In this document: one piece after another, positions 1 through 17,557 of the stretch
Position numbering within the stretch: position 1 is the first letter of the stretch
Layout of the letters: each line of letters opens with the position of its first letter
Virus record (IMG/VR): IMGVR_UViG_3300030382_002775
Coordinates: 1-24,838 of that record
From: a virus
Strand: one strand, 5' to 3'
Length of the DNA: 24,838 bases
The notes under the pieces: generated by a model
What the model was told of the DNA's origin: nothing
Seen by the model: only the letters and a program-made list of their open reading frames with translations
The model's database searches: none
Position numbers and translations under genes: made by a program

Positions 1-868
1 TAAAAGCACCAACATGTATCACATCGGGATTTCCCCCAGATGCAAAAATCAAGTCTAATGCACTTCTAAAGATAGTTTCAGTCAATGCTCTTTGGGTTCC
101 ATCAGTTCGGGCATCGGTCCCGTTTCCTGCTGGGGAAGCTGGTGAACCTGATGCACCCATGATGTCATTTGTTGCTATCCAACTTTGAACGGAACCTAGT
201 TCCCTCGCTGTTGATGCGTTTCCTGCAACACGCCCGTTGTTTAATCCAATCATTGCGTGTTCCATATCTTTTTTTAGTTCCTTAGATTTGTGAAGCATTT
301 GGAACGCTTTTTCTTTTTTACGTCCTGCTCTGTTCACTGCATCTAAAGTATTAGATACCACTACAGTTTTGTCAGAAATTTGAGTATAGTTTCCAACTCT
401 TGTAGTTGTTAAAGAAGCGTCTAATGTCGCTTCATCACCTTCAATAACTTTGTTATCGGCAACGGCACTTAATGCTAAAGTTTGCCATTCGTGAAAAGTA
501 TTTGTCACTTTTTCAGTTTTCAACCCACTTAAAAATGGAGTTTCTGTAACTGCCACTAATGAGATTAGGTTCGTCAAATCTTCACGATTACCGATGCTGT
601 CATAAGACATTATGTTAACGTTAAGGTTCTTTATCCTTAACTTCTATCATTTTATATATAGTGATAGTTCAGACTATATCTTAACCTTTCGGTCTTGGGA
701 TTTCGTGGAGAGGTTATTGTTGGTACTCACTCTCTAGTCGTTACGCCTTCTATAAAACTTAAAACCTTTATAGCTTGGCACGGTATTATCCATTTCAGGA
801 CGTTCACCGTTTAACCCAATTTTACTTCAACTACTTATTTAATCGAAGGTATTGGTTGGCTGTGCCAT
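1..868 (-). CDS. Major capsid protein, SU10/DUF5309 type, split by a group I intron, 3' end outside the window
   Basis: This is the main shell protein of the head. Exon 1 is 868-842 (nine codons, MAQPTNTFD) and exon 2 runs from 607 off the window edge. The joined product reads MAQPTNTFD-SYDSIGNREDLTN, then a segment with SGLKTEKV, HEWQTLAL, VGNYTQI and KELKKDMEHAMIG. This is the order of conserved blocks I know from DUF5309/SU10-type capsid proteins. The start ATG at 868 follows an AAAGG ribosome site and lies 12 nt after the scaffold stop. A naive reading would start translation at the ATG at 610, but that ATG overlaps the intron's last base and would lose the conserved first residues. The C-terminal part of the protein is not in the window. 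Confidence 0.9.
608..841 (-). ncRNA. Group I self-splicing intron (234 nt) in the capsid gene, no homing endonuclease
   Basis: Read on the minus strand. P1: exon end CTTCGAT pairs with intron GTTGAAG, 7 bp, with the required U.G wobble at the splice site. P10: intron ATAAG pairs with exon 2 CTTAT. P4 is ACGGT/ACCGT, P5 is GTCC/GGAT, P6 is GCC/GGC, capped by CTATAAA/TTTATAG. P7 is GACTA (about 740-736) paired with TAGTC inside the conserved AAGATATAGTC (about 681-671). P8 is GACC-GAAA-GGTT. Two 3' hairpins follow (CTATCA/TGATAG and GTTAAGG/CCTTAAC), and the intron ends in ACATAATG with a terminal G. The core and 3' end resemble the T4 td intron (subgroup IA2-like, inferred). At 234 nt it has no room for a homing endonuclease gene. 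Confidence 0.93.
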
Positions 869-3075: not shown

Positions 3076-5090
3076 TATAATGTACCTATTTGTGCTTTCT
3101 TATTAATTTTTTCTCGTTCAATTTGAATTTCAGCTACCATTTCTTCTTGTTTTAATTTTATTTCTGCTATCATTTCCTGTTTCTTTAATTCTAGTTCAGC
3201 TTCCATTTTTTCTTTTCGCAATTGTAGATCTCCTATATTCTTTTCTCTATCCGCTTGTATTTGTTGCTGTGTTGCAATTAACAATGGATTATCCTGCATT
3301 GGATCTTTTTTCTGTTCAGGCGGTTGTGTTTCTGGATTAACAAAAAATTCTTGCGGGGATTTAAACCCTGCATTGTGAACCATTCTTTCCAGTGTATTAT
3401 AAATTGTTTGTTCATTTGCCAATCTACTACCTGACATTAAAATCTCTTTTTGAATACCTAAAATTTGTCCTAAAACTTGTAAACGTTGTTCATGTGTTCC
3501 CGTTCCTAACCCCACGTTTATTGTTAAATTAAATTTATTTTTCCACTCTCTTGGGTCTATTGGAACGTATTTATTTCTTATTTTAATTATTCTTTTATGA
3601 TCTTGATATTGTGTTGTCAGTTGTAATAAACAATTCATTAGATCTTTAATTCCTGTTTCTGCAAACACTCTCGCAATCGTTTCAATTCTTTGGCCAGCCG
3701 ATTGTACGGCTTCCCTTACTCCTGTTGCGGTTGTATGAGATTTTTGAATTGTGTTTGGATCTAAACCTTGTTGTAATCTGTTTATGCCTGAACGTTGTTC
3801 TTTTATTTGATCGACTTTCTCAATCATTGCCAAGCCTTCTTGCATAAAGTTTTGTGCTTGTAATGGCACAACAGCGTTTGGTGATTTTACCCTCACTATA
3901 TTGCCCGCGCGCGACTGTAGTAAATCATCCAGATTAACCATTCCGTCCTGCGCTAAAACCCTAGAATTATTCATAAGGAAAGCGTTGTCCAAGCACTGTC
4001 TTAGCAACACTGACTTTATTTTTTGGATGTCCATAACGAGGTCTGCAACACTCATTCCAAATAAACGATGCGGATTAATAATCGGTGTTATCGTTGAAAA
4101 AGGAAGATAACTTATTTCTTCTACATCCAAAATTTCATTCGTATCACCAACAGTAACCACTTTTAATAATTCGGCTACTCCGTCATTATCAATATCGGTG
4201 CGGATATAATTTTCCATGTAAAGAATTTCACGCATAGATGGATCAGCGTTTTCATCCATGTAACTTTCTTCATTAAACATGTTACGGCTTAATGTTTCTT
4301 CATTCCATGTGGAATTTGCGTAAGATGGTAGATCTTCTATTTTTTTTCTATCAAAACCTTCACCAATTAATTCTGATACCGTCTTTTTTAACCGATGCGC
4401 TACATATGGCGCATCCACTAAATTTTTTGCTCTTTTGGAAACAAGCATTTCTTCGGGAGGAACGTTTTCTATGCAAATTTTTCCTGATGATGATTTTCTT
4501 TTAACCTTAACATTAAATGTTACTTGATTATCAGGTAATTCACCCTGTTCCGTCATCACCATTTTTTCTTCTAAAACTTCTTCGACACTTATAACTTCAA
4601 CGTCATCATCAACCAATAAAGCCTGATATTCTATCTCTGTTAAACCTTTATAACTCTCTTTAATAAATTCATCTTCATACTTGTAATAATGCTTAATAAA
4701 TCCATTTTTTTGAATTAATGCATCTTTGAACCAAGTATAAAATATTTGCCATCCATCATTATCCTTCATGATGATATGGTTTATGTATTCTGTTGCCTGT
4801 TTGGATGCTTCTTCATCTTCTTCAGATACAGGCTCAAATTTAACTATATCGTCTCCTGCGGTAAATATTCTGAGTAAACTGGGGAGAACACTCTCAACAG
4901 CTTCCAGCACATCAGAGGATATAACCTGAGATCTGCCTTCTACCTCATTACCAAAAGGTTCTGAATTATAATAATCTAAGGCTAGGCTTCGTTCTTGGAC
5001 CAATTTACCGTTCTGATACCCTAAAGCATCAGTAATTTCGCGCGTAATGGTTCCTTTTAACTCAGCTTCTTTTTTTTTATTTAATTTCAT
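3075..5090 (-). CDS. Portal protein (P22/SU10 type)
   Basis: 671 aa, the usual size for a P22/SU10-like portal, which forms the dodecameric DNA channel at the capsid vertex and docks the terminase. Typical blocks are ALDYYNSEPFGNEVEGRSQV, then VLPSLLRIFTAGDDIVKFEP near residues 85-110, PPEEMLVSKRAKNL near 215, FGMSVADLVMDIQKIKSVLLRQ and RAGNIVRV in the middle, and ATGVREAVQSAGQRIETIAR. The last ~60 residues are a heptad-like Lys/Glu/Met/Ile helix (EAELELKKQEMIAEIKLKQE), matching the coiled-coil barrel found at portal C-termini. It starts 35 bases from the divergent HTH gene, with only a weak AAAGAA ribosome site. Confidence 0.92.
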   Translation of the reverse strand: MKLNKKKEAELKGTITREITDALGYQNGKLVQERSLALDYYNSEPFGNEVEGRSQVISSDVLEAVESVLPSLLRIFTAGDDIVKFEPVSEEDEEASKQATEYINHIIMKDNDGWQIFYTWFKDALIQKNGFIKHYYKYEDEFIKESYKGLTEIEYQALLVDDDVEVISVEEVLEEKMVMTEQGELPDNQVTFNVKVKRKSSSGKICIENVPPEEMLVSKRAKNLVDAPYVAHRLKKTVSELIGEGFDRKKIEDLPSYANSTWNEETLSRNMFNEESYMDENADPSMREILYMENYIRTDIDNDGVAELLKVVTVGDTNEILDVEEISYLPFSTITPIINPHRLFGMSVADLVMDIQKIKSVLLRQCLDNAFLMNNSRVLAQDGMVNLDDLLQSRAGNIVRVKSPNAVVPLQAQNFMQEGLAMIEKVDQIKEQRSGINRLQQGLDPNTIQKSHTTATGVREAVQSAGQRIETIARVFAETGIKDLMNCLLQLTTQYQDHKRIIKIRNKYVPIDPREWKNKFNLTINVGLGTGTHEQRLQVLGQILGIQKEILMSGSRLANEQTIYNTLERMVHNAGFKSPQEFFVNPETQPPEQKKDPMQDNPLLIATQQQIQADREKNIGDLQLRKEKMEAELELKKQEMIAEIKLKQEEMVAEIQIEREKINKKAQIGTL

Positions 5091-9562: not shown

Positions 9563-10299
9563 AAAACTATTTATACATTTCTATTGGTGAATTTAGCATT
9601 TACTACACTTTAAGAAATGTGCGTACTGAAGTTCAATGGACTGATCGTGATGAATTTGGCAATTACAATAATCATTACGGTGAAAACGATTATTATTTAT
9701 TTAATTTATCTACGGATAAAAAAGAAGCTATTCAAAAAGCTGAAAAATATGCCAAAGAAAATAATTTAAAATTATTGCGTGCTGGTGATGATCTTGTTGT
9801 TACTGGTAAAATTGGTGATGCTAAAGAAGATCGTCAAAATAAATATGGTTTATCTACTGGTGAATTTACTGAAAAGAAAAGACCTGATGAACCAATGGTT
9901 TGGAAAATACCTACTAGATCACCAGCAGATATAGAAGCAGACAAATTACAAAAAGAACAAGAAGAAAAAATTAAACAAGAAAGATTAGATTTTTATAAAC
10001 ATCCTGAATGGAAACAAATTAGACGTTATCTTTGGTTAAATGCAATTCATAATCAATATGGTTCTAAGTTACATGCATTAGAAACTGGTTCTCTTAGATG
10101 GAGAGAAGAAGCTAGATATATGTGGGATAGTTGCGGTGATTTTGTTGTTAGCATGGTTAGAGATATTGATAACAAATGGATAATGTCACCAAGAGCATTA
10201 GTAATAGTTTTAGAAATTTATTGTAAGCAATTTGGACGTAAAGGTTCAAAAGCATTTAAAAAAGAATTTAATAATTTGATGGATAAATTTAATGCCTAA
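9553..10299 (+). CDS. Phage protein of unknown function (248 aa)
   Basis: The N-terminal ~95 residues look alpha/beta (YLYISIGEFSIYYTLRNV; KEAIQKAEKYAKENNLKLL). A charged helical linker spans about 115-155, and a helical C-terminal domain has YKHPEWKQIRRYLWLNAIHN and WREEARYMWDSCGDFVVSM. No catalytic motif is obvious. It overlaps its neighbours by 1 and 8 nt, so it is translated as part of the cassette. Homologues, if any, are likely phage-specific. Confidence 0.7.
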   Translation: MSHQNYLYISIGEFSIYYTLRNVRTEVQWTDRDEFGNYNNHYGENDYYLFNLSTDKKEAIQKAEKYAKENNLKLLRAGDDLVVTGKIGDAKEDRQNKYGLSTGEFTEKKRPDEPMVWKIPTRSPADIEADKLQKEQEEKIKQERLDFYKHPEWKQIRRYLWLNAIHNQYGSKLHALETGSLRWREEARYMWDSCGDFVVSMVRDIDNKWIMSPRALVIVLEIYCKQFGRKGSKAFKKEFNNLMDKFNA

Positions 10300-11050
10300 A
10301 TATCTATCACCATCTAACTTTGTTGATATGCCTACTATCAATAAAGATTATATTGAAATTAAACCTATTGCATTAAAAGATGCACAAGAAATAATTAATA
10401 AGTTTCATAAACATAATATCCAGCCACAAGGTCATAAGTTTTCTTTAGGTATATTTAGAAAACAATTAGATAATTGGGAATGTGATGATTATGAAGGTTT
10501 ACATGATTGGGTTATTATAGATAAGTTTGATACGGACGATGATAGTATTATTGAATATTATGATCCTGAATTTGGTGATGTAAATTACAGTGATAAGTAT
10601 GATGCTTATGTATTAAATGTAGGCGGGGAAGGTATTTATGCTAGACCTAAATCTGAAGGTAGTATTTTACTTGGCGTTGCTACTGTTGGATTGCCTGTTG
10701 CTTGTCCTCTTAATGATGGCAAAACTTTAGAAATTACTCGTATTTGTTTTGTTAATGATGATGACGAACCATGTTTTGATAGCCAGCTTCCACAATTTAA
10801 TAAAGATCATGCTTCACCTGTACCAAGCATGTTTGTTTCTACAATTATTAAGAAAGTAAAAGAATTAGGATATAAAAAATTAATTACCTATACAAGAATT
10901 GATGAACCAGCAAAATATTTAAAAGCTGTTGGTTTTATTATTGAGTTTACTCAAACTAGAATTAAGAAATGGAAAAGTAAAAATGCAGATAAGATTTATA
11001 ATAAATCTGCACCAAGTCTTAAAAATCGTTGGAGTATTAACTGTGCATAG
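10292..11050 (+). CDS. XF1762-type GNAT-like acetyltransferase
   Basis: 252 aa. The C-terminal half has the blocks GSILLGVATVGLPVACPLND, GKTLEITRICF, PSMFVSTIIKKVKELGYKKL, ITYTRIDEPAKYLKAVGF. This is the order seen in XF1762-family proteins, which have a GNAT fold and are common in phages and mobile elements. The N-terminal block DAQEIINKFHKHNIQPQGHKFSLGIF matches the family start. An acidic insertion (about 60-115, rich in Asp/Tyr) separates the two and is unusual. The substrate is unknown. GNAT-like phage proteins often act in modification or host take-over. Confidence 0.75.
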   Translation: MPKYLSPSNFVDMPTINKDYIEIKPIALKDAQEIINKFHKHNIQPQGHKFSLGIFRKQLDNWECDDYEGLHDWVIIDKFDTDDDSIIEYYDPEFGDVNYSDKYDAYVLNVGGEGIYARPKSEGSILLGVATVGLPVACPLNDGKTLEITRICFVNDDDEPCFDSQLPQFNKDHASPVPSMFVSTIIKKVKELGYKKLITYTRIDEPAKYLKAVGFIIEFTQTRIKKWKSKNADKIYNKSAPSLKNRWSINCA

Positions 11051-12017: not shown

Positions 12018-12820
12018 GCTTTAAATTCTTCTTCCGTAATTAAGTTTTCTTTTCTCATCTTTACTACCATGTCATCTGTTATACTTAATAATCGCATTTG
12101 TTTTTTAACTGCATATACATAATCTTTATAATCTTTAGGTTTGGATATTTGAAATTCATCTTTTTCTGGTGTTATGTTGTAAGTTTCCCAATTTTTTCCG
12201 TTCAACCACGTCGTTACCATTGGAACACCTAATTTATTTTCCTGCTGATGCGATGAATAATGATTATAGGTTGTTAAAATTTTAACTAATAAATCACTAT
12301 CTTTTTTATTCTTGTGGTAAAACTTTTCTGCTTTGCCTTTAACCCCTTTATTTGGTCCCACATAATTAAATGCTTTCCACCAATCCTCAAAAGCAGGATC
12401 ATTTATATTATTATTTATTTTATTATTTATTTTATTATGTTTTGTATCGCTTGATGTATCGCTTGGTGTATCTTGATACTCGTCATAATTGCAGATTGTA
12501 AGAATGTTTGGTGTATCGCTTGGTGTATCGTTTGGTGTATCACTTGTAATTACAGAAAAATTTTTTAATTGATCTAAATAGCGCTGAACTCTTGATTTAT
12601 TCCAACCCCACGCTTCAGCCATGTAACGTATTGAACAGCATAATTGACCACGTTTTAAAGTTATTTCCTGATTATTAATTCTATACTGACGTTTAACAAA
12701 ACTAGCTTCCATAATTAACCACATAAAAGCACCTAAATTACACAATTCTCTATTCTTTTTTTGAAAGGCGGGGTGAAATAGTACACCTCTAGTAAATTTG
12801 ACGTAGCCGTTAGAGTTCAT
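12011..12820 (-). CDS. Replication-initiator-like winged-helix protein
   Basis: 269 aa. Residues ~1-105 match the N-terminal winged-helix domain of phage replication/replisome-organiser proteins: GVLFHPAFQKKNRELCNLGAF, ITLKRGQLCCSIRYMAEAW, GWNKSRVQRYLDQLKN, ILTICNYDEYQ. A Ser/Asp/Thr/Pro repeat linker (about 92-125, several copies of SDTP or NDTP) and an Asn-rich stretch follow. The C-terminal domain begins FEDWWKAFNYVG and includes KAEKFYHKNK, as in initiators that bind origin DNA or recruit helicase. No helicase Walker motif is present. It overlaps the LexA-type gene by 4 nt. Confidence 0.75.
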   Translation of the reverse strand: MNSNGYVKFTRGVLFHPAFQKKNRELCNLGAFMWLIMEASFVKRQYRINNQEITLKRGQLCCSIRYMAEAWGWNKSRVQRYLDQLKNFSVITSDTPNDTPSDTPNILTICNYDEYQDTPSDTSSDTKHNKINNKINNNINDPAFEDWWKAFNYVGPNKGVKGKAEKFYHKNKKDSDLLVKILTTYNHYSSHQQENKLGVPMVTTWLNGKNWETYNITPEKDEFQISKPKDYKDYVYAVKKQMRLLSITDDMVVKMRKENLITEEEFKAW

Positions 12821-13062
12821 GCAACCAGCTTTAAGGTTCTAGCCTTATACATTTCTTTAGAAATCCATCCCCGTTCCTCTAAATTTAAAATATAACGAGC
12901 AACATTGGATTTACTTTTCATATTCATGGCTTTTACAATTTCATCATAACTTGGAGATACAGCATTTATTTCAATATATTCTTTTATATAGTTAAAAACC
13001 CTCTCCATATTCTTCGTTAAAGGTATTTTAGCTATTTTTTGCTTACAGTGTGGGCATTCCAT
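12817..13062 (-). CDS. LexA-type winged-helix regulator with N-terminal CxxC, no protease domain
   Basis: 81 aa. Residues ~14-80 fit the LexA DNA-binding domain: VFNYIKEYIEINAVSPSYDEI, VKAMNMKSKSNVARYILNL, EERGWISKEM, ARTLKLV. The N-terminus carries CPHCK, half of a zinc knuckle. The Ala-Gly cleavage site and the Ser-Lys protease domain of LexA and CI-type repressors are absent, so it could not respond to RecA by self-cleavage. It diverges from the recombination operon, with four operator copies between them. It is a candidate lysogeny or early regulator, or an accessory to the initiator gene it precedes. Confidence 0.75.
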   Translation of the reverse strand: MECPHCKQKIAKIPLTKNMERVFNYIKEYIEINAVSPSYDEIVKAMNMKSKSNVARYILNLEERGWISKEMYKARTLKLVA

Positions 13063-15383: not shown

Positions 15384-15536
15384 TTGTATGATAAAACAAA
15401 AAAGCTGGCGGAAGAAGAAGGAAAAATACCCGTTATTTGCCTTTGTCAGAGCCATAGAAAAGGTTTTTGGATCATTGTGCATGAAGATGATCTGGATAAG
15501 GTAAATGACATTAGAGAGCAAGATAATAGTAAGTAA
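15384..15536 (+). CDS. 50-aa protein, TTG start inferred
   Basis: The body AEEEGKIPVICLCQSHRKGFW, then IIVHEDDLDKVNDI, looks like a small folded domain. There is no ATG in frame near it. The TTG at 15384 has GGAG at a suitable distance. An alternative frame from the ATG at 15370 gives a 44-aa basic product that looks less protein-like. It overlaps the next gene by 32 nt. Confidence 0.45.
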   Translation: MYDKTKKLAEEEGKIPVICLCQSHRKGFWIIVHEDDLDKVNDIREQDNSK

Positions 15537-15831
15537 ATCCCATCAGAAACATGTGGCTTCCCAGCCGTGTTTTTATACTGGTGCAACAGAAGGGGTTCAG
15601 TGTTGCCATGTTAAATTTCTTGGTGAAAGATTTATGATGGGTAAGCGTGTCTCAGATATTTGGACAATACCCATGCATTATTTACTCCATGAACAACAAC
15701 ACCAACATAATGAATTAGAATGGCACCTTAATAGATTAATGATTAGTCCTATTGCCAAAAAATATTGGGCAACGTCCCCTGATAAAAAAATTAGAGATAT
15801 ATATGAACAGCAAAAAATTTTCCTTACCTAA
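15505..15831 (+). CDS. HNH-type nuclease-like protein (DUF968/Ref-like)
   Basis: 108 aa. C22 (QPCFYTG), C33-C34-H35 (VQCCHVKF), then GKRVSDIWTIPM, H58, H62 and H66 reproduce the zinc-knuckle plus HNH pattern of DUF968/Ref-like phage nucleases: CxxxG...HH...K..D.W.vPLC..HH...H. Here the first H of the HH pair is Cys (C34-H35), which may or may not retain activity. Such proteins often sit in lambda-like recombination regions. They cut DNA bound by recombinase or Holliday-type structures. Confidence 0.72.
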   Translation: MTLESKIIVSKSHQKHVASQPCFYTGATEGVQCCHVKFLGERFMMGKRVSDIWTIPMHYLLHEQQHQHNELEWHLNRLMISPIAKKYWATSPDKKIRDIYEQQKIFLT

Positions 15832-16879: not shown

Positions 16880-17067
16880 GTACCGTAAAGAAAAGATTAT
16901 CCATGAAAAAATACAGAGAAGAAAACTATTCTTCTGTAACAAATCCACGAATAAAAAATAAAGAATTAAAAACTTGCACCTTATGTCCTGCTAAATATTA
17001 TTCTAATTCTGTTCATGATAGATTTTGTAGTCAGTGTAGAAAAAAAGCAAGGAGAATGTATGCATAA
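16876..17067 (+). CDS. Small zinc-ribbon protein
   Basis: 63 aa. Basic N-terminus, then TCTLCPAKYYSN and FCSQCRKKARR: two CxxC pairs about 17 residues apart, a complete zinc ribbon followed by a basic tail. It is likely nucleic-acid binding. It overlaps the DnaA-like gene by 8 nt. Confidence 0.65.
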   Translation: MSTVKKRLSMKKYREENYSSVTNPRIKNKELKTCTLCPAKYYSNSVHDRFCSQCRKKARRMYA

Positions 17068-17557
17068 TCAACACAGAAATGACAAAGGTACCAAGATTGC
17101 TTCTGTATTAAAGAAGAAAAAACATATTGAAACAATAACAATTGATAAAATTAAATTTCAAGGAAAAAAAGAAAACTTTAAAAAAGAAAATTCTAACTGG
17201 ATGCTTAATCAAGAAAGAGAATTAAATGTAGATAAAAAAATATTTTTAACTCAACCAGAAATTATAAGATTAAAAGAATTACTTAGAAATATTGATCATG
17301 TTTATCCTGAAGCGTTGCGGAAAAATGGTATGATGGAATGGTGTATAAAAGTCTGTTCAACGTATGAAATATCATTAGATGAATTTAGATCTAAAAGAAG
17401 GCATAAAAATTTAGTTCAAGCAAGAACTGATTTTTGTCATGCTGTTATTAGAAATACAGATTTTGATTATTCGGCAATTGGAAGGTTTATAAATAGACAT
17501 CATACAGACGTTCTACATCATATAAAAAATAGAAAACCAAAACACTTTGTAAAATGA
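17060..17557 (+). CDS. DnaA domain IV-like DNA-binding protein without the AAA+ domain
   Basis: 165 aa from the ATG at 17060, which has AAGGAG five bases upstream. The first ~60 residues are Lys-rich and probably disordered. Residues ~113-156 (RRHKNLVQARTDFCHA, then DYSAIGRFINRHHTDVLHHI) match the DnaA C-terminal domain: the helix before the HTH, the IGRxFxRxHTxVLH signature loop and the final helix. That domain reads DnaA boxes. No ATPase motifs precede it, so it cannot melt an origin alone. It could compete with host DnaA, mark the phage origin or act as a regulator. Confidence 0.72.
   Translation: MHNQHRNDKGTKIASVLKKKKHIETITIDKIKFQGKKENFKKENSNWMLNQERELNVDKKIFLTQPEIIRLKELLRNIDHVYPEALRKNGMMEWCIKVCSTYEISLDEFRSKRRHKNLVQARTDFCHAVIRNTDFDYSAIGRFINRHHTDVLHHIKNRKPKHFVK

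Follow-up and report, generated by a model that had tools for sequence, protein, structure and literature searches.

A compact group I intron in an SU10-type major capsid gene, where mobile introns of aquatic viruses have settled repeatedly

The DNA analysed here, referred to as the window, comprises 24,838 nucleotides (positions 1 to 24,838 of the IMG/VR virus record IMGVR_UViG_3300030382_002775) and opens with a major capsid gene read on the minus strand. Exon 2 of this gene (1-607, minus strand) begins TCT TAT GAC at position 607 and is cut by the contig end, so that the gene is incomplete. Its product matched the Pfam family SU10_MCP (PF17236) with 174.2 bits against a cut-off of 24.1, bearing out the SU10-type capsid identity given in the first-pass annotation, and the predicted spliced protein scored 174.9 bits. 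Exon 1 (842-868, minus strand) consists of an ATG and eight further codons (ATG GCA CAG CCA ACC AAT ACC TTC GAT, read from 868 to 842; MAQPTNTFD), and GAAAGG, a short way upstream of it, is likely to be the ribosome site. Between the exons, after codon 9, lies a 234 nt group IA intron (608-841, minus strand), which begins with an in-frame TAA directly after exon 1 and ends in G; its removal would give the junction ...TTCGAT/TCTTATGAC... in DNA letters. In the capsid frame an ORF caller would take as its first remaining start the ATG at 610-608, within the intron, and the ORF reported from there (2-610, minus strand) would be mis-started, as had been foreseen.

Elsewhere in the window, a phage contig, are genes for a product carrying the C-terminal helix-turn-helix of bacterial DnaA (17015-17557, plus strand; 43.6 bits), a LexA-type DNA-binding domain protein (12817-13062, minus strand) and a phage integrase (17918-18958, plus strand); the last two suggest a temperate phage. 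The product of 10292-11050 (plus strand) weakly resembles the Mom family of DNA-modification proteins (18.6 bits, short of the 27.1 cut-off), and that of 15505-15831 (plus strand) is a short DUF968-like protein of 108 aa, a weak match below the curated cut-off and at best a candidate homing enzyme. A search of the window gave no tRNA gene.

The Rfam covariance model had been proposed as a check on the intron and gave a divided answer. In a local permissive search of 551 bases the group I intron family RF00028 matched over the full model with 35.8 bits (E=1.5e-7), but this is below the gathering score of 50. Searches of Rfam at the gathering threshold and with RF00028 across the whole window and record gave no match for the intron; because its score is under the curated cut-off, standard annotation is silent on it. 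The homologue at the same site in another contig (L087) scored 59.4 bits, above the gathering score. As the element at 841-608 is structured and compact, it might instead be an element of an intergenic leader, such as a riboswitch, a thermometer or a packaging signal. However, no other Rfam family matched this stretch in the local permissive search, and the full-length group I match, the intact P7 and J8/7 core and the exact empty sites described below refute that idea, which we regard as having a negligible chance of being correct.

The exact ends of a group I intron proposed for this sequence, 841 and 608 on the minus strand, proved sound: the U.G pair of P1, P10, P7 (GACUA/UAGUC), J8/7 and the terminal G are all present. 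P1 is a helix of 7 bp, in which the exon strand CUUCGAU (842-848; this and all following elements on the minus strand) pairs with the internal guide sequence GUUGAAG (825-831), whose G is opposite the last exon U at the 5' splice site. This U.G pair and the terminal G are both typical of group I introns, and 4 of the 7 pairs of P1 show compensatory change among five homologous introns. P10 is formed by AUAAG (834-838) with exon 2 CUUAU (602-606), and the guanosine-binding helix P7 by GACUA (735-739) with UAGUC (672-676). Between P7 and P3' there is an extra stem, the P7.1 hairpin GAGAG/CUCUC (708-734; three compensatory pairs relative to the intron of L086); a P7.1/P7.2 stem in this position marks group IA, an assignment made at the level of group IA as a whole. 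The segment 672-699 (CCCAA GACCGAAAGGUU AAGAUA UAGUC) contains P3', P8 with a GAAA loop, J8/7 (AAGAUA) and P7', and was identified by the Rfam match, the fold, covariation and a blastn match to Twort-like phage introns. The P9 and P9.1 hairpins (620-667) carry six compensatory pairs.

The predicted RNA was more stable than shuffled versions of itself (fold energy -57.1 vs -42.1; z=-3.8), none of 200 shuffles being as good. The minimum-energy fold recovered P1, P4, P5, P6, P6a, P7, P7.1, P8, P9 and P9.1 and missed P3 and P10; P3 was present in the centroid fold. When the five introns, one of them a copy from another site, were aligned, 97.8% of cells were paired, and P3, P4, P5, P6, P7 and P8, the P3-P8 core, were paired in all or nearly all of the sequences. 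Compensatory changes were seen in 18 of the 64 pairs, a level of covariation reached by 0 of 500 shuffles. Pairing fell to 29-44% when the partners were slid relative to one another; since the structure had been modelled on the window sequence, it has an advantage in this slide test, though none in the compensatory counts. The covariation extends across the splice site, with exon differences in L086 and L212 matched by changes in their own guide sequences.

These data bear on the idea that the intron has decayed and does not splice, the capsid protein being made from the ATG at 610-608, within the last bases of the intron, to begin MSYDSIG. This ATG is exactly in frame with the ORF open behind it, and the introns at the same site in L086 and L087 likewise end in ATG. 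Against this, no ribosome-binding sequence is found just before it, whereas exon 1 has one, and on this ground an internal start at 610 was judged unlikely; moreover, most introns of the set described below end in UG, so that an ATG here is expected without any role in translation. The helices, the exon-intron P1 included, have been preserved through compensatory change. The same is evident over a short distance: two contigs near-identical to the window (L015 and L083) carry the intron with 4 differences in 234, of which one falls in a loop and the other three preserve pairing (a compensated A-U/G-C pair in P6a and a G-C to G-U change in P6). A decayed intron is therefore a very unlikely explanation, and we retain the view that the element is a self-splicing group IA intron.

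The first-pass annotation had also argued that splicing restores the family N-terminus in frame, and had pointed to intronless relatives as a check. This N-terminus was borne out by five contigs (L001-L005; capsid proteins 93-94% identical) in which MAQPTNTFD runs into SYDSIGNRED without interruption, an exact empty site, so that the interrupted gene has the empty-site relatives looked for with a group I intron. In addition to the shared intron, the capsid genes of L015 and L083 hold another of group I, roughly 45 codons downstream (approximately 4140-4372 in L015 and 7295-7528 in L083; 87 bits, above the Rfam cut-off), which is absent from the window. Two more distant capsid genes, those of L086 and L087, have the same intron at the same site. 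Between the window and L087 the intron is 92% identical, but the exons show only 59% nucleotide identity (55 codons compared), which indicates that the intron has moved between phages; for L086 the figures are 91% for the intron, 81% for the exons and 51% at four-fold degenerate sites. The window intron would thus have reached its present hosts by lateral transfer. In the capsid tree, L086 is sister to the intronless L007 (95% SH-aLRT). Codon 9 is GAC in both L007 and L010, which are hence without the U that P1 needs, whereas in L086 it is GAT, and identity between the window and L001-L005 dips from about 60 nt before to about 15 nt after the insertion point. The codon-9 difference and the flanking dip fit what co-conversion of the exons would leave, and neither proves it.

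Since all the relatives are metagenome contigs, and two of them have the look of chimeras, claims based on a single contig need care, and the intron of another phage might have been joined into an intronless capsid gene during assembly. The two contigs in question do resemble assembly chimeras inside intron sequence. In one (L088, minus strand, 1068 to 790), exon 1 and the 5' half of the window intron are followed by the 3' half of a second, different intron and by a capsid gene other than that of the window; it is probably an assembly chimera and possibly a true recombination inside introns. In the other (L293, 1820-2150; L274 is this contig too), 27 nt of exon sequence are duplicated either side of an intron, as if the assembler had merged variants with introns at two sites. 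For the window itself, however, the same intron and junction are found in contigs from different metagenomes (L015 and L083), diverged copies are present in L086 and L087, and P1 fits its own exon in each of these. An assembly artefact is thus refuted in the main by independent contigs, and its likelihood is minimal. L088 and L293/L274 were left out as probable chimeras, and L283 because its junction was not resolved. The exon-pattern match in L085 arose by chance, with no intron present, and an 11-bit RF00028 match in L006/L082 was likewise taken as chance.

Searching IMG/VR with a P6-P7 core pattern gave many group I introns among the matches listed, several of them in SU10-type capsid genes; an earlier pattern with stricter P7.1/P9 text had given no match, near kin included. 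With RF00028, four introns per capsid gene were found in L090, L092 and L196, two in L102 and L290, and one each in L096, L148/L275, L284 and L287; gap and splice mapping placed two in the capsid gene of L212. Splice sites were picked by a U before the intron, a G at its end, P1 and the capsid profile, and those chosen give a continuous reading frame; removal of all four introns from L092 leaves 333 aa in the capsid frame. The introns occupy at least seven positions, at capsid residues ~9 (A, the site of the window intron), ~25 (B), ~49 (C), ~55-60 (D), ~116-120 (E), ~243 (F) and ~288 (G), with exact positions within B and D varying by a few bases between phages. The four-intron arrangement comprises B, D, F and G in L092 and L196, which come from different samples, and B, D, E and F in the separate lineage L090. 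All 23 introns mapped by splice-site scoring are 234-275 nt long and without an endonuclease gene; the missing endonuclease of the window intron, previously described as unusual, is therefore nothing out of the ordinary in this gene family. Intron presence on the capsid tree, a quick tree with long branches, requires at least 12 changes, 8 of them forced by starred branches. In the intron tree, the introns of site A fall together with the L212 intron of site C in a 100/100 group, and those of D, E and F are each scattered, a pattern that suggests moves between sites with acquisition of new guide sequences. These results show the SU10-type capsid gene to be a repeated landing site for mobile group I introns in aquatic viruses, with up to four per gene.

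One intron of this gene does encode an endonuclease. At site C of L054, between HE and W, a 905 nt intron (3096-4000; a weak RF00028 match of 23.6 bits) carries a gene for a 240-aa LAGLIDADG_3 protein (24.8 bits against a cut-off of 22.5), and its removal gives a capsid protein of 316 aa. All 22 members of the family of this enzyme found in IMG/VR (the query locus included; L300-L321 among them) share one location, residue ~49 of an SU10-type capsid gene, and no relative was found in 50,697 phage records. It would appear that in other phages a larger intron, at a different position of the capsid gene, keeps a LAGLIDADG homing endonuclease. The window intron has no ORF in its 234 nt, in agreement with the first-pass annotation; leaving aside the weak DUF968 match, a Pfam scan of 25 window proteins revealed no homing endonuclease domain, free-standing included, and none was found for the window intron's own site. 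The GTDB genome collection yielded no copy of the core of the window intron. It is conceivable, although we put this forward only tentatively and at less than even odds, that one clan of group I introns has over the long term targeted several sites in the SU10-type capsid genes of aquatic phages. Besides ordinary endonuclease homing at residue ~49, ORF-less introns would then relocate to new sites within the gene, each move bringing a new guide sequence, for instance via reverse splicing or endonucleases acting in trans.

The presence of a group I intron in the capsid gene is thus confirmed, and its splicing is predicted from the sequence. We consider it highly probable (about 0.94) that the SU10-type major capsid gene is interrupted at 841-608 by a compact self-splicing intron of group IA, a laterally acquired member of a mobile set, its splicing and the mobility route of the endonuclease-less copies being deduced. 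The basis for this explanation is sequence, structure, covariation, empty and filled sites, and patchy distribution. In the proposed mechanism the transcript would fold so that P1 sets the last U of exon 1 opposite the G of the guide sequence, guanosine bound in P7 would attack the 5' splice site, and the freed exon 1 would then attack after the terminal G, with P10 helping to align exon 2; the predicted product joins MAQPTNTFD to SYDSIGNRED. On unspliced message the in-frame TAA should halt ribosomes entering the intron. Each virion takes hundreds of copies of a capsid protein, so splicing would have to be efficient.

Such capsid genes are overlooked or given a wrong start by gene callers and default Rfam searches. 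Surveys of capsid genes in viral metagenomes lose N-termini, and the intron cores held in common may produce assembly chimeras. The set also offers a natural test of how introns spread without an endonuclease: the same intron and site recur in distant capsid genes, the same core occurs at different sites with matching guides, and the LAGLIDADG enzyme is found only in the capsid gene, at one site.

Group I introns in capsid genes are already documented. For mycobacteriophage LittleE, splicing of an intron in the major capsid gene was established by RT-PCR and protein sequencing (PMC3706429). This intron, like that of the window, is of group I type, with U before it and G at its end; it differs in its length of 819 bp, its LAGLIDADG-like ORF and its high-GC host bacterium, the window intron being 234 nt and ORF-less. 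An intron in the capsid subunit gene of lactococcal phage Tuc2009 is cited in the same paper. The crAss-like Zeta phages have major capsid genes with several group I introns (PMC7886860), as does the SU10-type set, also from uncultured phages; the Zeta introns were found through intron-encoded endonuclease domains in genomes of 145-192 kb, whereas the SU10-type ones are ORF-less mini-introns. With these precedents the window intron belongs to a known type, and the first-pass view of it as unusual has to be adjusted. No report of introns in SU10-type capsid genes was found in the open-access literature searched, which is not proof of absence; the wider multi-site pattern seems to be undescribed. 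At the sequence level, introns of several Twort-like staphylococcal phages were in blastn 79.5% identical over 72 nt to the 3' core of the window intron (P8 to the 3' end); their host gene and peripheral elements differ, and the similarity is absent from the 5' half. The td intron of T4 (group IA2) interrupts the thymidylate synthase gene and holds I-TevI. The window intron is built on the same group IA plan, an extra stem separating P7 from P3, and differs in having no P2.
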